Assembly (NCBI GenBank): GCA_029261195.1 | Contig: JAJDBU010000038.1 | Coordinates: 1 to 55,191, forward strand | Direction: 5' to 3' | Origin: Nitrospirota bacterium | Lineage (GTDB): Bacteria > Nitrospirota > Nitrospiria > SBBL01 > JAADHI01 | DNA: 55,191 bases | Shown: in pieces, positions 29,328 through 44,072 of the stretch | How the letters are laid out: the number at the start of each line of letters is the position of its first letter | Numbering within the stretch: position 1 is the first letter of the stretch | Notes under the pieces: model-generated | What the model was told of the DNA's origin: nothing | Database searches by the model: none | Seen by the model: the letters and a program-made list of their open reading frames with translations, nothing else | Position numbers and translations under genes: made by a program

Positions 29328-30800
29328 TTGCCATGTGTAAAAAAACAAACCTCATTGGGCCCTTATTTGAATAAGTTAAAGACTGACTCGCTGCTTCTTT
29401 TTTTCTTCACCCTCATGATGCTTTCCTGCATTCCGAAACCCGCACAAGTTGCTTCTCCTGTTTCTGCGCCGGAACAATTTTCCAGTTCCGGCAAAGCTCA
29501 AATTTCTGATCAGTGGTGGCTCAGTTTTGATGATCCCGGACTGAATTATTTGATGGATCAAGCCTTATCCCATAACTTCAGCTTGCGAAGCGCATGGGAC
29601 AGGCTGGCTCAGAAGGAAGCCCTGGTGCAAAGAGAAGGAGCCGCTCGCAGTCCCACACTTGATTTTCAGGCGAATGCCTCACGCACAGAAACAAGAGGTT
29701 CGGCAGGCACCCTCACGACAGGCCAGCAAAGCCGATCTTTTAAACGGTTTTTTGTGGGATTGAGCACCAACTATGAACTGGATCTTTGGGGGCGCATTGC
29801 TTCGACGCATGAGGCGGCCAAGCTCGACCTGAAAGCCAGTGAAGAAGATCTTCAAGCTGCCGCGATAACGCTTTCGTCGCAAGTCGCCTTTAGCTGGTTT
29901 CAATGGCTGGAACAGAAGGGGCAACTTGAATTACTTGCAAAGCAGATCAAAACCAATGAACAGGTCTTGGAACTCGTCACCTTCCGTTTTCGCCGTGGTC
30001 AGGTCGGAGCGACCGATGTCCTTCAGCAACGGCAATTGATTGAAGCCAGTCGAGGAGATATGGCTTCGGCGCAGTCGAAGGCAAAAGTGTTACGACATCA
30101 ATTGGCCATTTTGCTGGGGCGTCCCCCGAGTTTTTTACCGAGCCTTTCGGTTTCAGAACAAGAAAGCAAATTGACGACGATGCCATCACTACCCGAAACC
30201 GGTTTGCCTGCCGAACTCATCCAGCGTCGCCCGGACATTCGCAGCGCCTATTTCAGGCTGCTTGCAGCAGATCAAAGCCTGGCCGCTGCCGTGTCCAATC
30301 GTTTTCCTCGTATCAGTCTCACTGCGCAGATTAATAGTTCGGGTCAGGCAGTCCGGGATTTATTTGATAACTGGCTGACAACATTGGCGGCCAATCTGGT
30401 CGGACCGATCATTGACGGTGGAAGCCGTCGTGCCGAAGTGGACCGCACACGGGCCTTGCTTTCAGAGCGTTTGAACGATTATGGACAAGTCATTCTTGAG
30501 GCGCTTGGCGAGGTTGAAAATGCCTTGATTCAGGAGAGGCAGCAACATCTTTTAATTCAAAGCTTCGATAAGCAACTCAAACTTTCACGGCAGGTCCTTG
30601 AGCAAACGCAGGAAAATTATCGACAAGGCGGCGCTGATTTCCTTCGTATTCTGGATGTCCTGCTGACACAACAGGCCCTGGAGCGTTCCCTTTTGCAGGC
30701 CCGTCGTGAGGCTAAGGGTTTTCGTGTGAATCTTTATCGTGCGCTTGGTGGTGGATGGAAGCTGGATCGGCCCGTACAAGCAGGGTTTATAGACAAATAG
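29328..30800 (+). CDS. TolC/NodT-type outer-membrane efflux lipoprotein
   Basis: 490 residues in the longest frame. A signal peptide with lipobox LMMLSC puts the lipidated cysteine at residue 34. Two outer-membrane efflux protein repeats follow, with LNYLMDQALSHNFSLRSA and LPAELIQRRPDIRSAYFRLLAADQSLAAAVSNRFPRISL-type motifs, which are diagnostic of NodT factors. The start is uncertain: TTG 29328 has no clear ribosome binding site and later TTG codons are possible. It is the exit duct for the RND pump encoded next. Confidence 0.92.
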   Translation: MPCVKKQTSLGPYLNKLKTDSLLLFFFTLMMLSCIPKPAQVASPVSAPEQFSSSGKAQISDQWWLSFDDPGLNYLMDQALSHNFSLRSAWDRLAQKEALVQREGAARSPTLDFQANASRTETRGSAGTLTTGQQSRSFKRFFVGLSTNYELDLWGRIASTHEAAKLDLKASEEDLQAAAITLSSQVAFSWFQWLEQKGQLELLAKQIKTNEQVLELVTFRFRRGQVGATDVLQQRQLIEASRGDMASAQSKAKVLRHQLAILLGRPPSFLPSLSVSEQESKLTTMPSLPETGLPAELIQRRPDIRSAYFRLLAADQSLAAAVSNRFPRISLTAQINSSGQAVRDLFDNWLTTLAANLVGPIIDGGSRRAEVDRTRALLSERLNDYGQVILEALGEVENALIQERQQHLLIQSFDKQLKLSRQVLEQTQENYRQGGADFLRILDVLLTQQALERSLLQARREAKGFRVNLYRALGGGWKLDRPVQAGFIDK

Positions 30801-30824
30801 CATGTGGAGTAGGTGAAATAAATA

Positions 30825-32072
30825 ATGAGTGACCAAGAAAAACCCAATTCGGGACGAGGGATCATTTCGTTTCTTCTACGTGCTTTCATGGTCGTCGCCG
30901 TACTTGCCGGAGGGGCATTTTTTTCAATGTCCCTGGTGAAGAGCGGCCCGACGGCAATACGCAAAGTCCCCGAACGCCGCGCCCGCCTCGTGGAGGTGGA
31001 ACAGGTTCAGCTCTCAAATCACCGTGTCACCATTGAAGGTATGGGCACAGTCAAACCTGCTCGGGAGATCGATCTTTATGCCCGCGTAAATGGCGAGGTT
31101 CGCTGGCTGAGTCCCCTGCTAATGCCGGGTGGACATTTTATTGCCGGTGAAAAAATCCTTCAAATCGACCGTTCTGATTATGAACTGGTAGCTCGTGAAC
31201 GCCTTGCAGATCTTGCGCAGGCTCAAAGCAATTTAAAACTGGAGCTGGGACAACAAAGCGTTGCTCTTCGAGAATTTGAGCTTTTGGGTGAGAATTTTGG
31301 AAAAAAACCGGGCGGAAACCTCAAAAACAAAGATCACGACCTTGTTCTACGTTTACCGCAATTAGAAAATGTGCGCGCCGGCGTAGAAAAAGCTCAATCG
31401 GCTCTCGAAAAGGCCAAGTTGGATCTTGATCGAACCAGGGTTATTGCCCCTTTTAATGCCATCGTAGAAACGGAGGCGGTCGATCTCGGGGCAGTGGTCA
31501 CGACTGCAACAAAGCTTGCGACTTTGATTGGCACTGACCGCTATCGGGTGGAGGTCTTGATTCCGGTGGATCAACTCCGTTGGATCAAAATCCCAGGCAT
31601 GAACAAGCTGGAAAGCGGGTCGGCCGTAAAAGTGTATGATCGAGCGGCATGGGGGGAGAAGGCTTTTCGGGAAGGAAAGGTCATCCGACTTGCGGGAGAC
31701 CTTGAAGCAGAAGGACGTATGGCCCGCCTTTTAGTTGAAGTAAGCGACCCCTTGGGTCTCAAATCCGGAAAGAAAAGCCTTCCCCATCTCTTGATCGGCT
31801 CTTTTGTGCGTGTCGCCATTGCGGGCAGAAGCCTCAATCAGGTCGTCGCCATTGACCGTGCGCTTCTCAGGGACGGCGATACCGTCTGGCTTATGAATAC
31901 AAAAAATGAATTGGAAGTCCGGCCGATTGAGATTGTTTACCGGAATCGGGAGCAGGTCTTCGTTTCGACTGGTCTTCACAAAGGGGAGCGTTTAGTCATC
32001 ACCGATCTCTCTGCCCCCGCAGCGGGAATGCCGCTTCGCATACAAAGGACGGGTGAGAGATCAAAGCCTTGA
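30825..32072 (+). CDS. RND efflux periplasmic adaptor subunit
   Basis: 415-residue membrane-fusion protein. One N-terminal membrane anchor (about 17-38) is followed by the lipoyl/barrel-sandwich half motif EIDLYARVNGEVRWLSPLLMPGGHFIAGEKI, an alpha-helical hairpin (about 120-200), the second half (ARVIAPFNAIVETEAVDLGAVVT) and a beta-barrel domain. It links the inner-membrane permease to the TolC-like channel. Its stop overlaps the permease start (TTGA). Confidence 0.93.
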   Translation: MSDQEKPNSGRGIISFLLRAFMVVAVLAGGAFFSMSLVKSGPTAIRKVPERRARLVEVEQVQLSNHRVTIEGMGTVKPAREIDLYARVNGEVRWLSPLLMPGGHFIAGEKILQIDRSDYELVARERLADLAQAQSNLKLELGQQSVALREFELLGENFGKKPGGNLKNKDHDLVLRLPQLENVRAGVEKAQSALEKAKLDLDRTRVIAPFNAIVETEAVDLGAVVTTATKLATLIGTDRYRVEVLIPVDQLRWIKIPGMNKLESGSAVKVYDRAAWGEKAFREGKVIRLAGDLEAEGRMARLLVEVSDPLGLKSGKKSLPHLLIGSFVRVAIAGRSLNQVVAIDRALLRDGDTVWLMNTKNELEVRPIEIVYRNREQVFVSTGLHKGERLVITDLSAPAAGMPLRIQRTGERSKP

Positions 32073-35000
32073 ATACCAATCCATCCCATCACAATACGGA
32101 AGCTCATCACAAACTGAAAGGCCCCATCGCCTGGATGGTGCATCATCGGGTGACACCCAATTTGCTGATGATTGTGCTTTTGCTTGGCGGCTTCCTGATG
32201 TCGGGGAAAATCAAGAAAGAAGTCTTCCCCAATTTTGATCTGGACGAGGTTCGCATTACGGTTGCCTATCCCGGTGCAAGCCCGGAAGAGGTTGAGCAAG
32301 GCATTATTTTGGCAATTGAAGAAGCCATCAGCGACATTGATGGCGTGGAGGAAATCACGGCCACTGCAAATGAAGGCATGGCCTCTATTATCGCAGAATT
32401 GGAAGAGGGCGGAAATTCACAAAAAACCTTTCAAGATATCCAACAGGAAATTGATCGCATTCGAACCTTTCCGGAAGAAGCAGAGGAGCCGACGGCTACG
32501 ATTCCTACACGGAGGAGAATCGTCGTTTCTGCCGTCATTTATGGCGATGCAAGTGAAGGGGTACTGCGCGAGCTGGCCGAAGAAGTGCGCGACCGCATCC
32601 TGCAAGATCCGGAAGTGACCCAGGTTGAGTTGGGCGGGGCGCGCAATGTCGAGGTGAGCATCGAAATCCCGATGCTCACCTTACGTACTTATGGTCTGAC
32701 CCTGGAGGGCATCGCACAAAAAATACGGGCGACTGCTGTTGAGCTGCCGGGCGGTGCGATTGATACCGCCAGCGGTGAAATATTGATCCGGATGAAGGAG
32801 CGGCGAGACTGGGCTAAGGAGTTTGCACAAATCCCGATTGTCACGACCGCTGAAGGGGCGGTGCTTCATCTTGAGGAAATTGGCATTGTTCGCGAGGGTT
32901 TTGAGGAAAGTAATCGTTTTTTGAGCTTCAACGGCCAGCCGGCGATGGCCCTGGATATCTATCGTGTGGGTGAGCAGACGCCGATCAGCGTTTCAGACGC
33001 CGTCCAGAAAAACCTGAGAGAAATTGAACCCGATCTGCCGCCCGGCATTTTCCTCGAAATCAACCGGGACCGATCAAAGGTGTATCGCCAGCGTCTCAAT
33101 CTGCTGCTCAAAAATGGATTTTACGGGCTTTTGCTGGTCTTGGTTTTGCTGGGCCTTTTCCTTGAGTTTAAGCTGGCCTTTTGGGTGACCATGGGGATAC
33201 CCACCTCCTTTTTAGGGGCCTTTCTTTTTCTGCCATCGCTCGGCGTTACAATTAATATCGTCTCGATGTTTGCCTTTATTATTGCGCTGGGCATCGTGGT
33301 TGATGACGCTATCATTGCAGGGGAAAATATTTACGAATACCGAAGCAAGGGAGAGGGTTTCGTTTCGGCAGCGATTAAAGGGACAAAGGATGTGTCCGTC
33401 CCGATCACCTTCAGCATCCTCACCAATATCGTTGCTTTTAGCCCGCTCTATTTTGTGCCCGGACAGATGGGGAAAATCTTTCAGACCTTGCCGCTCGTTG
33501 TCTGTAGTGTTTTTATCATTTCCTGGGTCGAAGCCATTTTAGTGCTGCCTGCTCACGTCGCCCATGGCGAAAAAGAACAAACCGGGACGCTGACCTATAA
33601 GTTGCACAAACACCAACAACGCTTCAGCACCTTCTTTTCAAAGTGGGTTGTCAAACTCTTTGGGCCATTTTTAGAGCTCTGCCTTCGTTATCGTTATTTC
33701 TCGGTCGCTGTCGGAATTGCGACCCTGGTGGTGGTCTTGGGTTATGCCAAAAGCGGCCGGATCGGTTTCATCCTTTTTCCAAAGATTGAGGCAGATCAGG
33801 CCGTCGTCACAGCGACCCTCCCCTATGGTAGTGCGATGCACAAGGTCAGGGAAACGCGGGACTGGCTCGTAAAAAGCGTCAACGTGGTGATTCAGGCCAA
33901 TGGCGGGGCGGAGTTGGCAGAGGGCACGCGCGCTAGAATTGATGAAAATATCGTCGAGGTGAGCGCCTATTTGACCGAACCCGAAGTCCGCCCGATTAGC
34001 ACGGCAGAGCTTACGCGGCTTTGGCGGGAGCAGACCGGACAGATGACGGGCTTAGAGTCTCTTCGTTTTGAATCGGACCGCGGCGGACCTGGGCGAGGGG
34101 CGGGCATCACCGTGGAGCTGAGTCACCGAGATATAGCCATCTTGGATCAAGCCAGCGCCGAACTGGCTAATTCGCTGAGGGAATTTCCCAATGTCAAAGA
34201 TATTGATGACGGTCTTGCCGCCGGAAAAGAGCAGCTCGATTTTCGGCTGCTTCCGGAGGGAGAAAGTTTGGGTCTCACCGTGCGAGAGGTCGCAAATCAG
34301 GTGCGGAGCGCCTTTTTTGGTGAGGAAGCCCTGCGGCAGCAACGAGGCCGAAATGAGGTCAAAGTGATGGTGCGGCTGCCGGAGGCCGAACGGATCAGCG
34401 AATACGATGTCGAGCAATTGTTAATTCGCACACCCTCTGGGCGTGATGTGCCTTTGATGCATGTGGTCGAAGTGCAACGTGGCCGGGCCTACACCTCGAT
34501 TACGCGTCATAACAACCGGAGGACGGTTGCCGTTACCGGAAATGTGGTTCCGATTGGGGAGACACGCCAGGTGCTAGGCGTCGTGAAATCGGAGATTTTG
34601 CCGGACTTGGTTCGGAATTATCCTGGTTTGAGTTACAGTTTTGAAGGGCGCCAAGCGGAAATGCGAAAAAGTTTGATGAGTTTGGGGCGTGGATTCATGA
34701 TGGCCATGTTGGGCATCTACATGCTCTTGGCCATTCCTTTTCGCAGTTATGTGCAGCCGCTCATCGTCATGGCCGCCATCCCCTTCGGCATCTTCGGGGC
34801 CATCATCGGCCACATATTCATGGACTACAATCTGAGTATCATCAGCGTCATGGGCATCGTCGCCCTCTCCGGTGTTGTCGTAAATGATGCCCTGGTCATG
34901 ATTGAATTCGCCAACGGGCAGCGTGATGCAGGCGCAAGCCCGCGAGAGGCCATTCGCATGGCAGGCATCCGACGTTTTCGCCCCATCTTACTCACCACCC

Positions 35001-35230
35001 TGACCACCTTCGGCGGCCTGGCCCCGATGATTTTCGAGACTTCACGACAGGCTCGATTCATTATTCCCATGGCCATTTCCCTGGGCTTCGGCATCCTATT
35101 CGCGACAGCGATTACCCTGATTATTATTCCCTGCCTTTATATTATTTTAGAGGATGTGTTGGGCCTATTTCGGAGGGGCTGGCACGGAGAGGAGAAGGGG
35201 CTGTCGGTGGAGGACTCTGGTTTGGTGTAG
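32069..35230 (+). CDS. RND efflux permease (AcrB/HAE-like)
   Basis: 1053-residue inner-membrane drug:proton antiporter-type permease. Twelve membrane helices are split by two large periplasmic loops. Conserved motifs: VFPNFDLDEVRITVAYPGASPEEVE at the first loop, IALGIVVDDAIIAGENIYEYR in TM4 with the proton-relay Asp pair, and SGVVVNDALVMIEFANGQRDAG near the second TM10 region. The start is TTG, overlapping the adaptor gene. The substrate cannot be deduced. With the adaptor and the TolC-like protein it makes a complete tripartite pump. Confidence 0.95.
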   Translation: MNTNPSHHNTEAHHKLKGPIAWMVHHRVTPNLLMIVLLLGGFLMSGKIKKEVFPNFDLDEVRITVAYPGASPEEVEQGIILAIEEAISDIDGVEEITATANEGMASIIAELEEGGNSQKTFQDIQQEIDRIRTFPEEAEEPTATIPTRRRIVVSAVIYGDASEGVLRELAEEVRDRILQDPEVTQVELGGARNVEVSIEIPMLTLRTYGLTLEGIAQKIRATAVELPGGAIDTASGEILIRMKERRDWAKEFAQIPIVTTAEGAVLHLEEIGIVREGFEESNRFLSFNGQPAMALDIYRVGEQTPISVSDAVQKNLREIEPDLPPGIFLEINRDRSKVYRQRLNLLLKNGFYGLLLVLVLLGLFLEFKLAFWVTMGIPTSFLGAFLFLPSLGVTINIVSMFAFIIALGIVVDDAIIAGENIYEYRSKGEGFVSAAIKGTKDVSVPITFSILTNIVAFSPLYFVPGQMGKIFQTLPLVVCSVFIISWVEAILVLPAHVAHGEKEQTGTLTYKLHKHQQRFSTFFSKWVVKLFGPFLELCLRYRYFSVAVGIATLVVVLGYAKSGRIGFILFPKIEADQAVVTATLPYGSAMHKVRETRDWLVKSVNVVIQANGGAELAEGTRARIDENIVEVSAYLTEPEVRPISTAELTRLWREQTGQMTGLESLRFESDRGGPGRGAGITVELSHRDIAILDQASAELANSLREFPNVKDIDDGLAAGKEQLDFRLLPEGESLGLTVREVANQVRSAFFGEEALRQQRGRNEVKVMVRLPEAERISEYDVEQLLIRTPSGRDVPLMHVVEVQRGRAYTSITRHNNRRTVAVTGNVVPIGETRQVLGVVKSEILPDLVRNYPGLSYSFEGRQAEMRKSLMSLGRGFMMAMLGIYMLLAIPFRSYVQPLIVMAAIPFGIFGAIIGHIFMDYNLSIISVMGIVALSGVVVNDALVMIEFANGQRDAGASPREAIRMAGIRRFRPILLTTLTTFGGLAPMIFETSRQARFIIPMAISLGFGILFATAITLIIIPCLYIILEDVLGLFRRGWHGEEKGLSVEDSGLV

Positions 35231-35295: not shown

Positions 35296-37590
35296 GTGAC
35301 ACGTTTCAGAAAAGCGTTTGCCTTCGGGTTTTTTACAGGACTGCTCGGGGTGGGCGTGGCTTTCAATCCTGTCGGCCTGGGTCTTGAAGAAAATTTTGGC
35401 CTGAGTTTGTTATTTAATCTGCGAGGCGCAAGAGCCGCGCCCGAAGAAGTTGTTGTCATTGCTCTTGATAAACGGTCGGCAGACCAACTCAATCTCCCTC
35501 GGGATACTAGAAAGTGGCCCCGATCCTACCACGCAAAATTGATTGATCGTTTAAGCGATGAAGGTGCGAGTGTCATTGCTTTTGATATCTTGTTCAAAGA
35601 GAAGCGCGAGAATGATGCTCTGCTAAGAGAAGCCATTGAGGATGCCGGAAATGTTGTCCTGATTGAAACGATCGAAAAAGAAAGCCTTCATCTAAACAAG
35701 CGCCTGGATCAGGGGGCCGGGAAGGTGGTATTAGAAAAACTTGTCCCTCCGACCCCGGAAATTGCGGCTGCTGCGCTATCACTGGCCCCTTTTCCTCTAC
35801 CGAAAGTCCCGGCCAGAGTAAATCAGTTTTGGACCTTTAAACATGTGAGCGTTGATTTTCCAACGATGCCCGTCGTTGTTTTTCAGATTTTTGCCTTAAA
35901 CGTTTTTGATGAAATGCACTCGCTTTTTGAAAAAGTCTTAAGCCAAGCCAATCTCAACAATGCCAAGCAAGAGCAGATAAACGATGCTTCTATCGCCTTA
36001 ACGAAAAAGTTGCTCACCCGGACAAAAGTTGAACTGATCAATGACAAAAAAATTAATCAATATATCCAAAACCTGAAGGCAATCCTGGGGAAAGAGACAT
36101 TTGTCTCTGGAAAGATGAAGGCAGCCTTGCAGAACCCGGCGCTAAAATATTCTGATCGCCTAAAGGCCGTCATCAATATGTATACAGCCGGCAAAACGCG
36201 CTACCTCAATTTTTACGGACCTCCGGGCACAATTACAACAGTTCCGTTTTATCAAGCGCTTCAAGGGTCGGCTAAGAGCGAAGAGGGTTTAAGCCCCTTT
36301 GATTTTAAGGGCAAGGCCGTCTTTATCGGATCTTCCGAAAGGCTTCCCGACTCTAGAAAAAAAGATGATTTTCATACAGTCTTTTCCCAAGAAACGGGTT
36401 TGTATCTGAGCGGCGTCGAGATTGCCGCAACCGCATTTGCCAACCTACTCAAAGAAAGTTCACTTCGCCTTTTATCTCCCGCATTCCACCTTTTTACCCT
36501 CTTGCTGTGGGGCTGTATCGTCGCAATGCTCTGGTTCTTGCTTTCTCCAGTCAAAGCGTTTTTCTCTACGGTCGGAGCGACTTTATTATTGATTGGCATT
36601 GCTTACAGGCAATTTGAATCTTCCGGGCTTTGGTACCCGGTGATCATTCCGCTCTTTGTCCAGATGCCGATTGCGATTATGGGCGCGTTGCTTTGGAATT
36701 TTGCTGATGCAAAAAAAGAACAGCGACAGATAAAAAAGGCCTTTGCGTATTATCTGCCCGATAAAGTTGTTGAGCGATTATCCGGGCGTATTGAGCTTCT
36801 CAATACTGAGCAGCAGATCGTTGAGGGCATTGTCTTGTATTCAGACATCGAAAATTACACCGTGTTGTCGGAATCAATGCCTCCAAAGGATCTGGCTGCA
36901 TTGATGAGCAATTATTATGAAACCATTTTTGCCCCGGTAGAAAAGTACGGCGGGATTGTGCTGAATGTGACAGGCGATGCCATGCTCGCCATTTGGACAG
37001 GCGCTGAGTTAACGGCAGGACTCAAGCGGCAAGCGTGTAGCACGGCGATTGCGATGGCTGAAGTCCTTGATCGATTTAATCAAGATTCCGGACGGATCAA
37101 ACTCCGCACCCGGATCGGAATCCACTGTGGAGAGATTTTTCTTGGCAATATCGGGGGTGGTCACCGACTCGAATATACCGCAATCGGAGATACGGCCAAT
37201 ACAGCGTCACGCATAGAAGGTCTGAACAAATATCTGAACACAGACTTATTGATCTCGCAGGTCATGCGAGAGGATCTGGACGGATTTTTAACAAGGCCAC
37301 TCGGCGTTTTTTTAATGGCTGGAAAACGGAAGCCGCTCATCATTCATGAGCTTGTTTCTTATTTGGAGCATTGCCATATCGAACAAGAGGAACTTTGCCG
37401 CTTGTTTTCATCCGGCCTTGAGTTATACAGGGAGCGGTGTTGGCGTGAAGCCCTTGAATATTTTTCAAAAGTCCTGAATGCGAAGAGAGAAGACGGCCCC
37501 AGCCTCTTGTACATCAAGCAGTGTCAACACAATATAAAAAATCCGCCACCCCCTTCCTGGGATGGCGTCATTCAGCTCGAAAAAAAATAA
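35296..37590 (+). CDS. CHASE2-domain adenylate/guanylate cyclase
   Basis: 764-residue inner-membrane receptor cyclase. After an N-terminal membrane helix there is a large periplasmic CHASE2 domain (about 40-400; VVVIALDKRSADQL, ASVIAFDILF, KAVFIGSS), then three membrane helices (about 400-480) and a cytosolic class III cyclase domain (about 510-690). Metal-binding Asp residues are in LYSDIENYT (about 517) and TGDAMLAIW (about 561). HRLEYTAIGDTANTASRIEGLNKY carries the substrate/transition-state region. It probably makes cAMP, since the TAIGDT context resembles the CHASE2 adenylate cyclase group, but cGMP cannot be excluded. The start is GTG. The next gene is a FecR-TPR-barrel protein. Confidence 0.93.
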   Translation: MTRFRKAFAFGFFTGLLGVGVAFNPVGLGLEENFGLSLLFNLRGARAAPEEVVVIALDKRSADQLNLPRDTRKWPRSYHAKLIDRLSDEGASVIAFDILFKEKRENDALLREAIEDAGNVVLIETIEKESLHLNKRLDQGAGKVVLEKLVPPTPEIAAAALSLAPFPLPKVPARVNQFWTFKHVSVDFPTMPVVVFQIFALNVFDEMHSLFEKVLSQANLNNAKQEQINDASIALTKKLLTRTKVELINDKKINQYIQNLKAILGKETFVSGKMKAALQNPALKYSDRLKAVINMYTAGKTRYLNFYGPPGTITTVPFYQALQGSAKSEEGLSPFDFKGKAVFIGSSERLPDSRKKDDFHTVFSQETGLYLSGVEIAATAFANLLKESSLRLLSPAFHLFTLLLWGCIVAMLWFLLSPVKAFFSTVGATLLLIGIAYRQFESSGLWYPVIIPLFVQMPIAIMGALLWNFADAKKEQRQIKKAFAYYLPDKVVERLSGRIELLNTEQQIVEGIVLYSDIENYTVLSESMPPKDLAALMSNYYETIFAPVEKYGGIVLNVTGDAMLAIWTGAELTAGLKRQACSTAIAMAEVLDRFNQDSGRIKLRTRIGIHCGEIFLGNIGGGHRLEYTAIGDTANTASRIEGLNKYLNTDLLISQVMREDLDGFLTRPLGVFLMAGKRKPLIIHELVSYLEHCHIEQEELCRLFSSGLELYRERCWREALEYFSKVLNAKREDGPSLLYIKQCQHNIKNPPPPSWDGVIQLEKK

Positions 37591-37941: not shown

Positions 37942-40900
37942 ATGAAAATAAAAAAGACAGCCCCTTCTTTCGAGCGAAAAAATCCATTCTTGAGTCCTTG
38001 TACCTTGATCCTTTTTGTGGGTCTGATGATATTGAACCCCCTTTCCGTTTGGGCTGCGGACTGTGAACCCTGGCTTGCTAAGTTGGTTTCGATTGAAGGG
38101 GAGGTGAAAGCCCGGAAGGCCGGAGAAGAAAGTTGGCAGACCGTAAAAGTCAACAAAACTTTTTGCCGTGGGGAAGCCCTTCAGGTTGGAAAAAACAGTC
38201 GTGCGGCGGCGCTTCTCAGCGACCATAGTCTGGTGCGTCTGGATGCGCAAAGCCTACTGACTTTCACTGGCGAGCGACAACAACAAGGCTTTTGGGTGGA
38301 ATTGCTCAAAGGCATCGGCCACTTCATCAGCCGGGTGCCGCGCAGCTTGAATATTTCGACGCCATTCGTAAATGCGAGCGTGGAAGGAACAGAATTTTTA
38401 GTTCGCGTTGGTACAGATACCGCTTTTCTAAGCGTTTTTGAAGGGGCAGTCACCGCACAAAATAAGCACGGGTCTTTAAAACTCACCAGTGGGGAATCGG
38501 CGACTGTGGGCGCAGGTCAGGCGCCTATCATCCAGCAAGTGATCCGACCGCGTGAGAATGTGCAATGGGCATTGTATTACCCCGCGATATTGCAGTTCGA
38601 TCGTAAAACCTTTGCCGGACAGCCAGCCGGGGCATGGCAATCACGGGCAGCACAATCCATCTCATTATTTACAGAAGGGGCGATTCCTCAAGCCCTTGAC
38701 GCTCTATCTGAAATCGGCAAGAAAATAGACGATGCGAGGTTTTTTAATTATCGCGCCTCATTACGGCTTGCTGTGGGACAAGTGGCCGGGGCGCAGAGCG
38801 ATCTTGATCAGAGCCTTGCCCTCACTCCGAACGACGGTGATGCGCTTGCTCTCAAGGCTGTGATTGCAGTGGTTCAGAACGACCGGGAGGGGGCCTTAGC
38901 CCTTTCAGAACAGGCTCTGACTGCGGCGCCAAATTCGGTCGGGCCGCTGCTTGCCCGCTCCTATGCCTTGCAAAGCAATTTTCAACTTGCAAAAGCCCGT
39001 GAAGCGCTGGAATCAGCCGTGGCGCAAGAGCCCGAAAATGCCCTTGCCTGGTCGCGATTGTCAGAACTCCGATTGATGTTTCGCGATTTGAAGGCCGCGC
39101 TTACAGCGGCAGAAAAGGCCGTTGCAATCAATCCCAATGTCGTACGCGCGCAGACCGTGCTCGGTTTTGCGCAATTAATGCAAATCGATACAGAGGCGGC
39201 AAAACAGTCCTTTGAAAAAGCCATGCGACTGGATCAGGCTTCACCGCTTGTCCGGCTGGGTTTAGGTCTGACCCTGATTCGTGAGGGCAATCTGAAAGCG
39301 GGGCGAAAGGAAATTGAAATTGCGGCGATGCTCGATCCAAGTAACGCCCTGATTCGGAGCTATCTTGGAAAAGCCTATTATGAAGAAAAGCGCGAGGACT
39401 TGGCTGACGAACAATATCGAATGGCCCGCGAGCTTGATGCAAATGATCCGACGCCTGATCTTTATAGCGCAATATTAAATCAAACCCGGAATCGTCCGGT
39501 GGAGGCATTGAAAGAGATTGAACGGTCGATTGCTTTAAATAAAAACCGCGCGGTCTATCGATCCCGCTTGTTGTTGGATGAAGACCTGGCTGCCCGGAGC
39601 GTCAGTCTGGCGCGCATCTATGATGATTTGGGTTTTCAGCAATTGGCCCTTGTGGAAGCCTGGAACTCGCTGAACAGCGATCCGGCAAACTATTCCGCCC
39701 ACCGCTTCCTGGCCGATTCCTACAAGGCGCTTCCCCGCTCGGAGATCGCAAAAAACAGCGCTCTGCTAATGGCTCAATTATTACAACCGCTGAACATTAA
39801 TCCCGTGCAGCCCGGTCTGAGCGACATTGACACAGCCATCCTGAGCGGAACGGGCCTTCGAGACCCTTCTTTTAATGAGTTGGACCAGCTTTTTAACCGC
39901 GACCGCTTTCACTTTCTTTCTTCGGGAGTATGGGGTGAAAATGGTCTCTTCGGCGAAGAAGCAATCTTGAGTGGCCTTCATGGCCGATCTTCTTACAGCT
40001 TTGGACAATCCTATCAGGAATCCGATGGGTTTCGAGCCAATAACGGTTTCACACAAAAAAATATCACCGCCTTTGCCCAGATGCGCCTGACAGCTCGTAC
40101 AAGTATTCAAGCTGAGTTTCGACGTAGCGAAACCGAAAAGGGAGACCTTAATCTCAACTTTGATCCAGATGATTTTTCAAAATTCTCTAAGAAAAAAAGG
40201 GAAGTTGAAACCTACCGGCTTGGTTTTCATCAAATCCTCTCCCCTCGCTCAAACATCATTGCCACTTTCTTCTATCGAGATTCAAAGGAGGATGGGCTCT
40301 CAGAGCTTCTTCCTGACCCTCCCTTCATCACTGGCGGTTCAATAAGGGCTCTCCTAGAAGCACGAGGTTATAGCGGTGAGATCCAGCATTTATTTGTGAG
40401 GGAACATACAAATATTATTACTGGTTTGGGTCATTTTGACGGAGACAGTATACCTAATATTATTGCAAATATTTTATCTCCTATCCCGGCACTAGCTGGG
40501 GAAAAGATTATCGATGACAAAAAAACTCGTGACCGTCATACCAACCTCTATCTTTATTCCATCACCAATGTTTTTCCAAACACCACACTCACTCTAGGTG
40601 GCAGCGGTGACTTCTTCGATGGCATTCCAAGAAACCGTGATCAATTTAATCCAAAACTGGGTCTCACTTTAAGGCCGAAGCCTTCAACGAGCCTCCGTAT
40701 AGCGGCCTTTAGAACCCTCAAAAGATTGCTTGTAGCGAATCAAACGATTGAACCGACGCAGGTGGCTGGTTTTCAGCAGTTTTTCGATGACACAAATGGT
40801 ACAGATGCTTGGCGTTTTGGCGCGGCAGTCGACCAGGAGTTTTCAAAAACACTCTTTGGTGGAATCGAAGTCACTACACGGGATGTGGAAGTGCCTCAAG

Positions 40901-41370
40901 TTCCCAGCCCAGGCCTTCCTTCGGAAGTGAAGAGGGATGAACGCCGGGGACGTGCTTATCTCTACTGGGCCCCGCATCCCCAGCTTTCAGCCAGTGCAGA
41001 ATATCTCTATGAACGTCTCGATTCAGAGGACTTTACAAACCCCTTCAATCCAAAAGTTAAAACGCAACGCTTTCCTCTGGGCATCAACTATTATCTCCCA
41101 AACGGGTTTTTCACCCGAATCAAAGGTACCTTCATTGATCAAGAGGGGATGTTTAAAGATGTCGCATCGGGTAAATTCTTAGACGACGGCGACAGGTTTT
41201 GGTTGGTGGATGCCTCGGTCGGTTACCGCTTGCCGAAGCGTTTGGGCTTCTTAACACTGGCGGTTAAAAACCTACTCGACGAAAAATTTCGATTCCAAGA
41301 GACTGATCTCGGGAATCCATCCATCCAAGCGGAGCGCCTAGTTTTTAGTAAACTGACACTGGCGTTTTAG
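37942..41370 (+). CDS. FecR domain - TPR - C-terminal beta-barrel fusion protein
   Basis: 1142 residues. A signal peptide (about 1-38, ending SVWAA) is followed by a FecR domain (about 48-190: VSIEGEVKARKAGEESWQTV, RAAALLSDHSLVRLDAQSLLTF, NASVEGTEFLVRV). A long TPR array follows (about 235-640, many units such as ALAWSRLSELRLMFRDLKAALTAAEKA). The last 500 residues are amphipathic strands of a large outer-membrane barrel related to TonB-dependent receptors, closing with LTLAVKNLLDEKFRFQETD and a terminal F. No plug domain or TonB box is seen. Layout suggests a periplasmic scaffold joined to an outer-membrane pore, like TPR-barrel exporters. A good AAGGAA ribosome binding site precedes the ATG. 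It follows the CHASE2 cyclase and precedes a small peptide gene. Confidence 0.85.
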   Translation: MKIKKTAPSFERKNPFLSPCTLILFVGLMILNPLSVWAADCEPWLAKLVSIEGEVKARKAGEESWQTVKVNKTFCRGEALQVGKNSRAAALLSDHSLVRLDAQSLLTFTGERQQQGFWVELLKGIGHFISRVPRSLNISTPFVNASVEGTEFLVRVGTDTAFLSVFEGAVTAQNKHGSLKLTSGESATVGAGQAPIIQQVIRPRENVQWALYYPAILQFDRKTFAGQPAGAWQSRAAQSISLFTEGAIPQALDALSEIGKKIDDARFFNYRASLRLAVGQVAGAQSDLDQSLALTPNDGDALALKAVIAVVQNDREGALALSEQALTAAPNSVGPLLARSYALQSNFQLAKAREALESAVAQEPENALAWSRLSELRLMFRDLKAALTAAEKAVAINPNVVRAQTVLGFAQLMQIDTEAAKQSFEKAMRLDQASPLVRLGLGLTLIREGNLKAGRKEIEIAAMLDPSNALIRSYLGKAYYEEKREDLADEQYRMARELDANDPTPDLYSAILNQTRNRPVEALKEIERSIALNKNRAVYRSRLLLDEDLAARSVSLARIYDDLGFQQLALVEAWNSLNSDPANYSAHRFLADSYKALPRSEIAKNSALLMAQLLQPLNINPVQPGLSDIDTAILSGTGLRDPSFNELDQLFNRDRFHFLSSGVWGENGLFGEEAILSGLHGRSSYSFGQSYQESDGFRANNGFTQKNITAFAQMRLTARTSIQAEFRRSETEKGDLNLNFDPDDFSKFSKKKREVETYRLGFHQILSPRSNIIATFFYRDSKEDGLSELLPDPPFITGGSIRALLEARGYSGEIQHLFVREHTNIITGLGHFDGDSIPNIIANILSPIPALAGEKIIDDKKTRDRHTNLYLYSITNVFPNTTLTLGGSGDFFDGIPRNRDQFNPKLGLTLRPKPSTSLRIAAFRTLKRLLVANQTIEPTQVAGFQQFFDDTNGTDAWRFGAAVDQEFSKTLFGGIEVTTRDVEVPQVPSPGLPSEVKRDERRGRAYLYWAPHPQLSASAEYLYERLDSEDFTNPFNPKVKTQRFPLGINYYLPNGFFTRIKGTFIDQEGMFKDVASGKFLDDGDRFWLVDASVGYRLPKRLGFLTLAVKNLLDEKFRFQETDLGNPSIQAERLVFSKLTLAF

Positions 41371-41522: not shown

Positions 41523-41729
41523 ATGGCAGATGAATATACAGAAGTAAAATTAGCAGTCTATCCTGACGGAAAAGTAACAGTCTTAAACCCGAGCGAACCA
41601 CCGATAGTCATGAAACCTGGAGATCCACCCTTTGTCCCTCCGAAGGGAATTACAGCGACAAACACAATTGGGGTTATTCGCTCCAACCCAACCTATATTT
41701 GTGTTGGTGGGACAATTTATTGCATTTAA
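41523..41729 (+). CDS. 68-residue peptide with Cys-containing hydrophobic C-terminus
   Basis: ATG 41523 is chosen because GGAGG lies 6 bp upstream; the earlier in-frame ATG at 41511 overlaps that site. The peptide has a charged N-terminus (MADEYTEVKLAVYPDGKVTV), a Pro-rich middle (EPPIVMKPGDPPFVPPKG) and a C-terminus NPTYICVGGTIYCI with two Cys. No signal peptide is present. The leader-plus-Cys-rich-core look is that of a processed or exported peptide, but no maturation enzyme was recognised. It lies about 150 bp after the FecR-barrel gene in the same direction and may belong to it. I do not recognise a family. Confidence 0.6.
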   Translation: MADEYTEVKLAVYPDGKVTVLNPSEPPIVMKPGDPPFVPPKGITATNTIGVIRSNPTYICVGGTIYCI

Positions 41730-42662: not shown

Positions 42663-44072
42663 TCAAACTGATGCATCATTTTTAATTTCGGCTTCCAGAC
42701 GGCGCAGCTTTTCATCTCCCTCCAAAAGGCGTCGGGTGATGGCCTTGACGAAGAGGCTTAACCATTCGGTGCGATGCAATTCACCTTCCAACTCCTCCCG
42801 TGTGACCACGATCAAGGAAACCGCTGTGCTCGTCGTAACCGTAGCCGTTCGCATCTGTGATCCAAAAATCGCTGTTTCTCCGAAAACCTCTCCTTCACCG
42901 AGTTGGCAGATCCACTGAGGTTTATGATCGACATTTTTGTGAACCTCGCAGGTTCCGTTTAGGATAATGTAAGCGGCGTTGGCCTTCCGTCCTTCTTGTA
43001 CAATGACGCAGCCCTTGGGGAGGTGTTTCGTCTCAAACCACCCGCCTCCCCGCAGAAAGTCCTCAATCTCATTCATTAGGGCATCGACAGTCGGGTAACG
43101 GGATGCCTGGTCCGAACTTAATGCACGCATTGCAATACGACATAATCCCGGAGGGAGTTTTCGATCTTTCACGACGACCTGCGGCCCTTGAATGTCTCCT
43201 TGATCCGCCAGGGCCCTGATGTCCCGAACCGTCTTTCCAAGATAAGGGGCGCGTAAGGTCAACATAAAATAAAGCAAGCCGCCAAGACCAAAGATATCGG
43301 TTCGTTCGTTGATGTTTTCATTTTTGCTCCGGGCTTGTTCAGGAGCCATGTAGGCGGGCGTACCGGATAATGAACTCTTTCTTCCTTGTAAGCGGGTATT
43401 GTCGGTCTCTTCAGCTACACCTTCACCTGCTTTAATTGATTGATTTTCTTTGATTAAATGAGCAATGCCCCAATCCACCACATAGACCTGCCCATGGGTC
43501 CCGACCATGACGTTGCTGGGCTTAAGGTCACAATGCACCACGCCCCGACTATGCGCAAAGGAAATGGCATCACATATTTTTAAGAAGATGTTCAACCAGT
43601 GCCTCATGTTTTTCCCAATCACACTTTCGGGATCTTCTGCCTTCAATGCATCGCATAAGGTTTTACCCTCCACCAGCTTCATGGTAAAACGCTTAGGCCT
43701 GCCGTCATCATCCATTTCGATGTCATGAACCGGGATGATGTTTGGATGATCCAAACTCGCCATGATTTTGGCTTCTTCAAAGAAGCGGTCTCGATTGTAC
43801 TGAGGGGTGTCTGGCTTCAACTCCTTTCTGGCAATCTGACGATGTAACAATTTATCACGCACCTTACAGACCGTACTTGTCCCGCCTTGCCCAAGGACTT
43901 CCTTCTCCTCAAAGCGGGAAGAAGCGGTCATTTTCACGGAGTTCTCCCGAACTTGGCTTGGGATGTGAATGGTTTGATCGAGATCCTCTGGAAGGTCGTA
44001 AGCGAGCGAAGTGTCCGTGTTTTTCTTCTTAGCCGCTATGGTCCCTACAATAGGCTTAGGGGGTGTTCTCAA
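42663..44072 (-). CDS. Ser/Thr protein kinase with C-terminal cyclic-nucleotide-binding domain
   Basis: 469-residue cytosolic kinase, no membrane anchor. The kinase domain (about 55-330) has P loop GQGGTSTV, the Lys in IARKEL, HCDLKPSN near 179 (Cys replaces the usual Arg), DWG near 197 instead of DFG, and GTPAYMAPEQ. The C-terminal cNMP domain (about 345-455) keeps the phosphate-binding cassette FGETAIFGSQMRTATV, with Glu and Arg that bind the cyclic nucleotide. Being close to a CHASE2 cyclase it is a candidate effector. The start is TTG directly after the ridA stop (TTAATTG), so translation is probably coupled to ridA. Confidence 0.93.
   Translation of the reverse strand: MRTPPKPIVGTIAAKKKNTDTSLAYDLPEDLDQTIHIPSQVRENSVKMTASSRFEEKEVLGQGGTSTVCKVRDKLLHRQIARKELKPDTPQYNRDRFFEEAKIMASLDHPNIIPVHDIEMDDDGRPKRFTMKLVEGKTLCDALKAEDPESVIGKNMRHWLNIFLKICDAISFAHSRGVVHCDLKPSNVMVGTHGQVYVVDWGIAHLIKENQSIKAGEGVAEETDNTRLQGRKSSLSGTPAYMAPEQARSKNENINERTDIFGLGGLLYFMLTLRAPYLGKTVRDIRALADQGDIQGPQVVVKDRKLPPGLCRIAMRALSSDQASRYPTVDALMNEIEDFLRGGGWFETKHLPKGCVIVQEGRKANAAYIILNGTCEVHKNVDHKPQWICQLGEGEVFGETAIFGSQMRTATVTTSTAVSLIVVTREELEGELHRTEWLSLFVKAITRRLLEGDEKLRRLEAEIKNDASV

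Follow-up and report, generated by a model that had tools for sequence, protein, structure and literature searches.

The receptor gene described here lies in a window (the whole analyzed stretch of 55,191 nucleotides, contig JAJDBU010000038.1 of a Nitrospirota bacterium) and is a single intact open reading frame, running from the ATG at position 37942 to the stop codon ending at 41370. A gene for a CHASE2 sensor enzyme precedes it, and an open reading frame for a 68-aa protein is found between it and the next convergent genes. The features of the locus are the following:

35296..37590, + strand: CHASE2 sensor joined to a class III nucleotide cyclase, putative inner-membrane partner, 764 aa (Pfam, alignment)
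37942..41370, + strand: receptor gene, signal peptide, FecR domain, TPR array and predicted plugless 22-strand barrel, 1142 aa (ORF, Pfam, AlphaFold2, Foldseek)
38077..38535, + strand: FecR-type periplasmic beta domain, residues 46-198 (Pfam, AlphaFold2)
38602..39780, + strand: TPR helical array, residues 221-613 (Pfam, AlphaFold2, VIA-align)
39904..41367, + strand: predicted 22-strand TonB-receptor-type barrel without plug, residues 655-1142 (Pfam, AlphaFold2, Foldseek, VIA-align)
41523..41729, + strand: 68-aa small protein with GGAGG ribosome site, no signal peptide and the C-terminal tail NPTYICVGGTIYCI (ORF, profile)
42663..44072, - strand: Ser/Thr protein kinase with C-terminal cyclic-nucleotide-binding domain (Pfam)

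Pfam analysis of the receptor recognized FecR at residues 80-170 (E 7e-14, above cut-off), about ten TPRs belonging to several TPR families with the best stretches between residues 271 and 481, and TonB_dep_Rec_b-barrel at residues 714-1111 (E 3.4e-7, 30.9 bits with a cut-off of 27). A plug domain was absent from all Pfam families listed up to E 1, and visual inspection of the linker and of the residues following the signal peptide showed no TonB box. Alignment with 16 full-length relatives revealed the same domain order and invariant residues along the whole chain, including two cysteines assigned to the FecR part, C41 and C75. As judged from these aligned sequences, the fusion is not a product of chance, its order being common to all 16. 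In the Pfam scan of the 16 family members, for which the first 25 of 45 families were listed, FecR and TPR were present in 16/16 and the barrel family in 9/16 at E ≤ 1; one or two of the other 15 members could carry a weak plug match. The FecR domain was also considered as an anti-sigma regulator, which was rejected: it shares one chain with a signal peptide and a barrel, no sigma domain or ECF sigma factor was found in the seven window genes scanned, and the receptor itself is the only FecR protein of the genome. CHASE2 genes number two in this genome, the second being located at G000:C10:10294-11151 (L208).

The original prediction had described one chain joining FecR, a long TPR array and a large barrel lacking a plug, and had named strand number and plug as the features to examine by structure prediction. 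AlphaFold2, run on the receptor with 16 relatives (mean pLDDT 75, pTM 0.51), returned a FecR-type beta domain at residues 46-198, helical repeats at 221-613 and 22 long strands at 655-1141, counted by hand from the listed secondary-structure elements with the short strand 853-858 left out. The model as a whole being of moderate confidence, the way in which its domains are placed relative to one another was disregarded. The linker from the last helix to the first barrel strand comprises about 40 residues, which leaves no room for a TonB-receptor plug. Reading frame, Pfam, model and relatives thus agree with the predicted architecture, and the absence of a plug is borne out by both Pfam and the short linker. 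All 50 matches listed by Foldseek were TonB-dependent transporters, while in VIA-align PirA ranked first among barrels (Z 21.6, rmsd 2.7, 402 aligned) and the helices were best matched by TPR subunits of the anaphase-promoting complex. PgaA and BcsC were absent among the matches listed by either program, an absence that by itself excludes nothing. The barrel is predicted to be of the TonB-dependent-transporter type and not of the smaller PgaA/BcsC type.

The CHASE2-cyclase gene lies upstream of the receptor gene with 351 nt between them. In view of this gap and of promoter-like matches at chance level (10 observed versus 8.7 expected, sd 2.6), co-transcription of the two genes is at most a possibility. 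After five duplicate loci were dropped, 93 receptor genes were counted, and 69 of them had a CHASE2-type ORF at a distance of 1.5 kb or less. This corresponds to 69 of the 77 evaluable genes, as 16 were situated at contig edges and eight lacked a nearby CHASE2 despite at least 2.5 kb of sequence on both sides. The CHASE2 gene was positioned upstream on the same strand in 59 cases, downstream on the same strand in five, and on the opposite strand upstream in three and downstream in two. From 72 CHASE2-like ORFs in non-duplicate loci 67 were aligned (L100, L109, L111, L114 and L117 were left out) and 66 of these, without L072, were scanned for domains: CHASE2 was present in all 66, a cyclase in 63, a histidine kinase in two and SpoIIE in one. 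A response-regulator-like ORF, recognized by eye, comes next at both histidine-kinase loci. The constant element beside the receptor is the CHASE2 sensor and the output domain varies; such an exchange of outputs while CHASE2 stays constant would be expected of a receptor that communicates with CHASE2.

Most of the partner enzymes retain key cyclase residues: the alignment positions which we take to be the metal aspartates are kept in 65/66 and 65/66 proteins, and the presumed catalytic Asn and Arg in 62/66 and 64/66. Residues 557 and 626 of the window enzyme, which we read as the substrate-specifying Lys/Asp positions of class III cyclases, are Asn and Glu, the family having mostly Asp (39/66) and Glu (57/66); cAMP and cGMP are indistinguishable as product from sequence. 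The Ser/Thr kinase encoded near the cyclase cassette is a possible downstream effector and, with its cyclic-nucleotide-binding domain in the same chain, possibly a one-chain analogue of cAMP/cGMP-dependent kinase. Directly upstream of the CHASE2 gene, an RND efflux set (outer-membrane factor, adaptor and pump) occupies 29328-35230 on the same strand.

The distribution of the receptor family was analyzed with several queries. The barrel found matches in 16/269 genomes of the class, and the 16-row receptor alignment found them in 30/395 genomes of the phylum at E ≤ 1e-30 and in 20/297 genomes from the phylum of Desulfosarcina alkanivorans, some of the latter over FecR/TPR only. In a contig collection the single receptor protein retrieved no relative, and a pattern scan with the alignment yielded 457 related stretches among 533 candidates. 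According to the record titles, the best 80 of these 457 stem from Nitrospirota, Deltaproteobacteria, Gammaproteobacteria, Burkholderiales, Nitrosomonas-type bacteria, Brocadia and others. One contig (L151) carries two receptor genes about 2 kb apart.

Comparison with characterized systems led to a receptor of Sinorhizobium. The receptor-family profile matched proteins of S. chiapasense, S. meliloti and Methylocystis (E 6e-44, 6.9e-39 and 1.3e-35), most strongly in FecR and partially in the barrel. The S. meliloti protein, encoded on pSymB directly before a CHASE2 ORF, comprises 1202 aa and was matched in FecR, TPR and part of the barrel, the barrel half being weak (E 5.3e-8, partial); in S. 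chiapasense and Methylocystis an intact CHASE2-cyclase gene comes next. In S. meliloti ml59 (L067, 12594-14542) CHASE2 and cyclase are split between two reading frames, and the gene table has no entry for this gene. By its length, its domains and the function of its neighbor only, the pSymB protein is probably NsrA. NsrA is described as an outer-membrane receptor required for signaling to CyaK and CyaD1/D2, its barrel spanning residues 600-1200 and free ribosomal protein uL2 being its candidate signal (PMC7529298); CyaD1, CyaD2 and CyaK are given as CHASE2 enzymes in PMC13001267. The likeness thus extends from FecR, TPR and a C-terminal barrel within about 1200 aa and an adjoining CHASE2 ORF, as seen in the probable NsrA protein, to an outer-membrane receptor acting upstream of CHASE2 adenylate cyclases. 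On the other hand, the barrel of the probable NsrA protein has strongly diverged in sequence from that of the window receptor, a small-protein gene was not seen at the S. meliloti pSymB locus, and uL2 is the candidate signal of NsrA and not known to act on the window receptor. Because of the profile matches, the CHASE2 neighbors and the published role of NsrA, we assign the window receptor to a described kind and not to a new class.

CHASE2 genes beside such receptors have been published for NsrA-type receptors and related clusters (PMC7529298; PMC13001267; PMC9239204). In the Campylobacterota cluster, compared here by its published description, a CHASE2 adenylate cyclase is grouped with a phosphodiesterase, a FecR outer-membrane protein and a TPR protein, the TPR being a separate protein there, in contrast to the window receptor (PMC9239204). 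The Burkholderia BiofilmReg operon pairs a LysM-FecR protein with a CHASE2 histidine kinase; it resembles the window in combining FecR with a CHASE2 sensor but has a LysM anchor in place of the TPR and barrel (PMC5192318).

The new element of the finding is the small gene 3' of the receptor, which seems, on the basis of sequence comparison, to belong to an undescribed small-protein family tied to such receptors. Tails like NPTCTWVYILGMWYYICY end many small proteins encoded downstream of receptor genes, and the family shares the C-terminal motif NPxCx(W/Y)...GxWYxxC. Downstream sequence of 450 nt or more was available for 87 receptor genes, of which 64 were followed by a candidate (50-260 aa, ribosome site, at most 300 nt from the receptor gene) and 23 were not. 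A crude hydrophobicity rule assigned no signal to 38 of the 64 candidates, a Sec signal to 16 and a lipoprotein-like signal to ten, although by eye a minimum of three Sec assignments (L082, L133, L144) look wrong. A strict regular expression for the tail gave 38 matches in 9,625 ORFs, 20 of them counted downstream of a receptor, and it was replaced by a profile because unrelated ORFs match it too. The profile, built from 24 seeds picked for their motif and location, was used to search the full set of 14,280 ORFs of the non-duplicate loci and detected 31 matches at E < 0.1, namely the 24 seeds and seven non-seed proteins, all adjoining a receptor gene. Rebuilding with new members stopped at 28 matches at E < 0.01, all adjacent, and one round brought a single ORF from outside the adjacent set to E < 0.1. 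In leave-one-out analysis 19 of the 24 seeds were recovered at E < 0.01, with the window protein at 0.0078; L085, L142, L121 and L098 were weaker and L116 was not recovered.

The linkage of the family to the receptor was also observed across genomes. The 68-aa protein alone as query found only itself among 269 class genomes, so that the family appears only with an alignment as query. A six-frame search with the 26-row alignment A2 gave 12 matches in 11/395 genomes and two in 2/297, all 14 located 85-700 nt from a receptor gene and none in genomes without a receptor match; as some of these genomes had supplied seeds, the search addresses unlinked copies and not family size. One genome (G359) contains a second small-protein match at G359:C2:152896-153558. 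Between the small genes of three relatives dN was 0.07-0.10, against a dS of 0.87, 1.11 or saturated, and their 18 C-terminal residues were identical; as dN is far below dS, we conclude that the gene is translated and that selection maintains its tail. At L063, where CHASE2 lies 3' of the receptor, a similar tail was found in an ORF 5' of the receptor with a non-significant E of 0.27. Nine small proteins scanned against Pfam and NCBIfam gave nothing above the curated cut-offs, AlphaFold2 of the 68-aa protein (pLDDT 51.9) showed a hint of strands at most, and the titles and abstract beginnings of the literature searched, with partial coverage, contained nothing on these proteins. L034 and L058 carry tandem secreted Cys-containing small proteins downstream of the receptor.

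Taken together, we consider it likely that the window gene encodes an NsrA-like outer-membrane receptor that uses its FecR/TPR arm to pass a surface signal on to the CHASE2 enzyme, with the small protein as a dedicated partner. The predicted 22-strand barrel, devoid of a plug and apparently of TonB coupling, would carry the TPR array and the FecR domain into the periplasm. A signal from outside, probably a protein or peptide by analogy with NsrA, would act on the barrel, and the arm would then touch the periplasmic CHASE2 domain of the neighboring inner-membrane enzyme. We infer from gene linkage, swapped outputs and the published NsrA genetics that this contact may alter cyclic-nucleotide synthesis. 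With 22 strands and no plug the barrel would form a wide hole, which something must close or use: the TPR/FecR arm could do so, and so could the small protein, whether as a plug, a ligand or cargo. The 68-aa protein is probably the dedicated ligand, plug or cargo of the receptor, with ligand or plug most likely and favored over cargo by analogy with the closest relative studied, which is a receptor.

The original prediction had compared the protein with the polysaccharide exporters PgaA and BcsC and proposed an export pore with a sensory domain rather than an importer. PgaA/BcsC-type exporters possess a 16-strand barrel, and a FecR domain is not known in PgaA or BcsC. They share with the receptor a TPR array joined to an outer-membrane barrel, but differ in barrel fold and gene neighborhood, as the seven window genes scanned around the receptor contain no polysaccharide-synthesis domain; kinship with these exporters is not supported. 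In a more general form, an open barrel with a TPR arm might secrete cargo, possibly the small protein, with CHASE2 reporting on the traffic. Features that would suit this are the missing plug, the fusion of a TPR array with a barrel, the presence in many relatives of a small gene directly 3', whose product often lacks a signal peptide, and a C39-like peptidase gene directly after one small gene (L032, 12896-13555). Nevertheless, we judge it unlikely, since the barrel is of TonB-receptor type and not of a known exporter fold, no synthase or inner-membrane exporter was common to the neighborhoods inspected by eye, the rough rule gives about one in three of the small proteins its own Sec or lipoprotein signal, and the nearest characterized relative is a receptor. 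The export-pore reading is therefore weak and displaced by the NsrA-like receptor, whereas the "sensory, not importer" part of the prediction is well supported.

With the TonB-dependent transporters and transducers (PirA, FptA, FecA and others) the receptor shares, by prediction, the 22-strand barrel fold, differing from them by the missing plug, the FecR domain in the same chain and the CHASE2 partner. From its barrel type it might be viewed as a small-molecule importer freed of TonB dependence with FecR/TPR as regulatory arm. We regard this as very improbable, because the plug is missing, neither an ECF sigma factor nor an uptake transporter was present among the scanned window neighbors, and the constant partner is CHASE2. 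As for the small gene, its product may be no partner at all, but a chance ORF or an independent linked gene, for example for a peptide-antibiotic precursor. Low identity among the members, the low-confidence fold and the 23 receptor genes lacking a candidate are in line with such an explanation, which nonetheless appears improbable in view of profile matches beside receptors only (12/12 in 395 genomes, 2/2 in 297), the low dN and the seven non-seed matches.

Returning to the NsrA-like receptor with a dedicated partner, the lipoprotein and Sec forms place the small protein in the envelope, and the signal-less forms, that of the window included, would fit either secretion via the barrel or liberation when cells lyse. 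Many small proteins lack an export signal, and the candidate signal of NsrA, uL2, is a cytoplasmic protein set free from cells; hence the more speculative idea, to which we give rather less than even credence, of a three-gene envelope-spanning cassette over several phyla in which the receptor has a self-encoded protein signal or plug; the small protein might then serve as a lysis alarm specific to kin, which neighbors would sense via the barrel. Few outer-membrane barrels that drive an inner-membrane cyclase have been described, NsrA being one, and the present data extend the receptor-CHASE2 arrangement to several phyla, in which the CHASE2 outputs are interchangeable. Should the small proteins prove to be ligands or plugs, what CHASE2 systems sense would become testable with a defined, locally encoded molecule.
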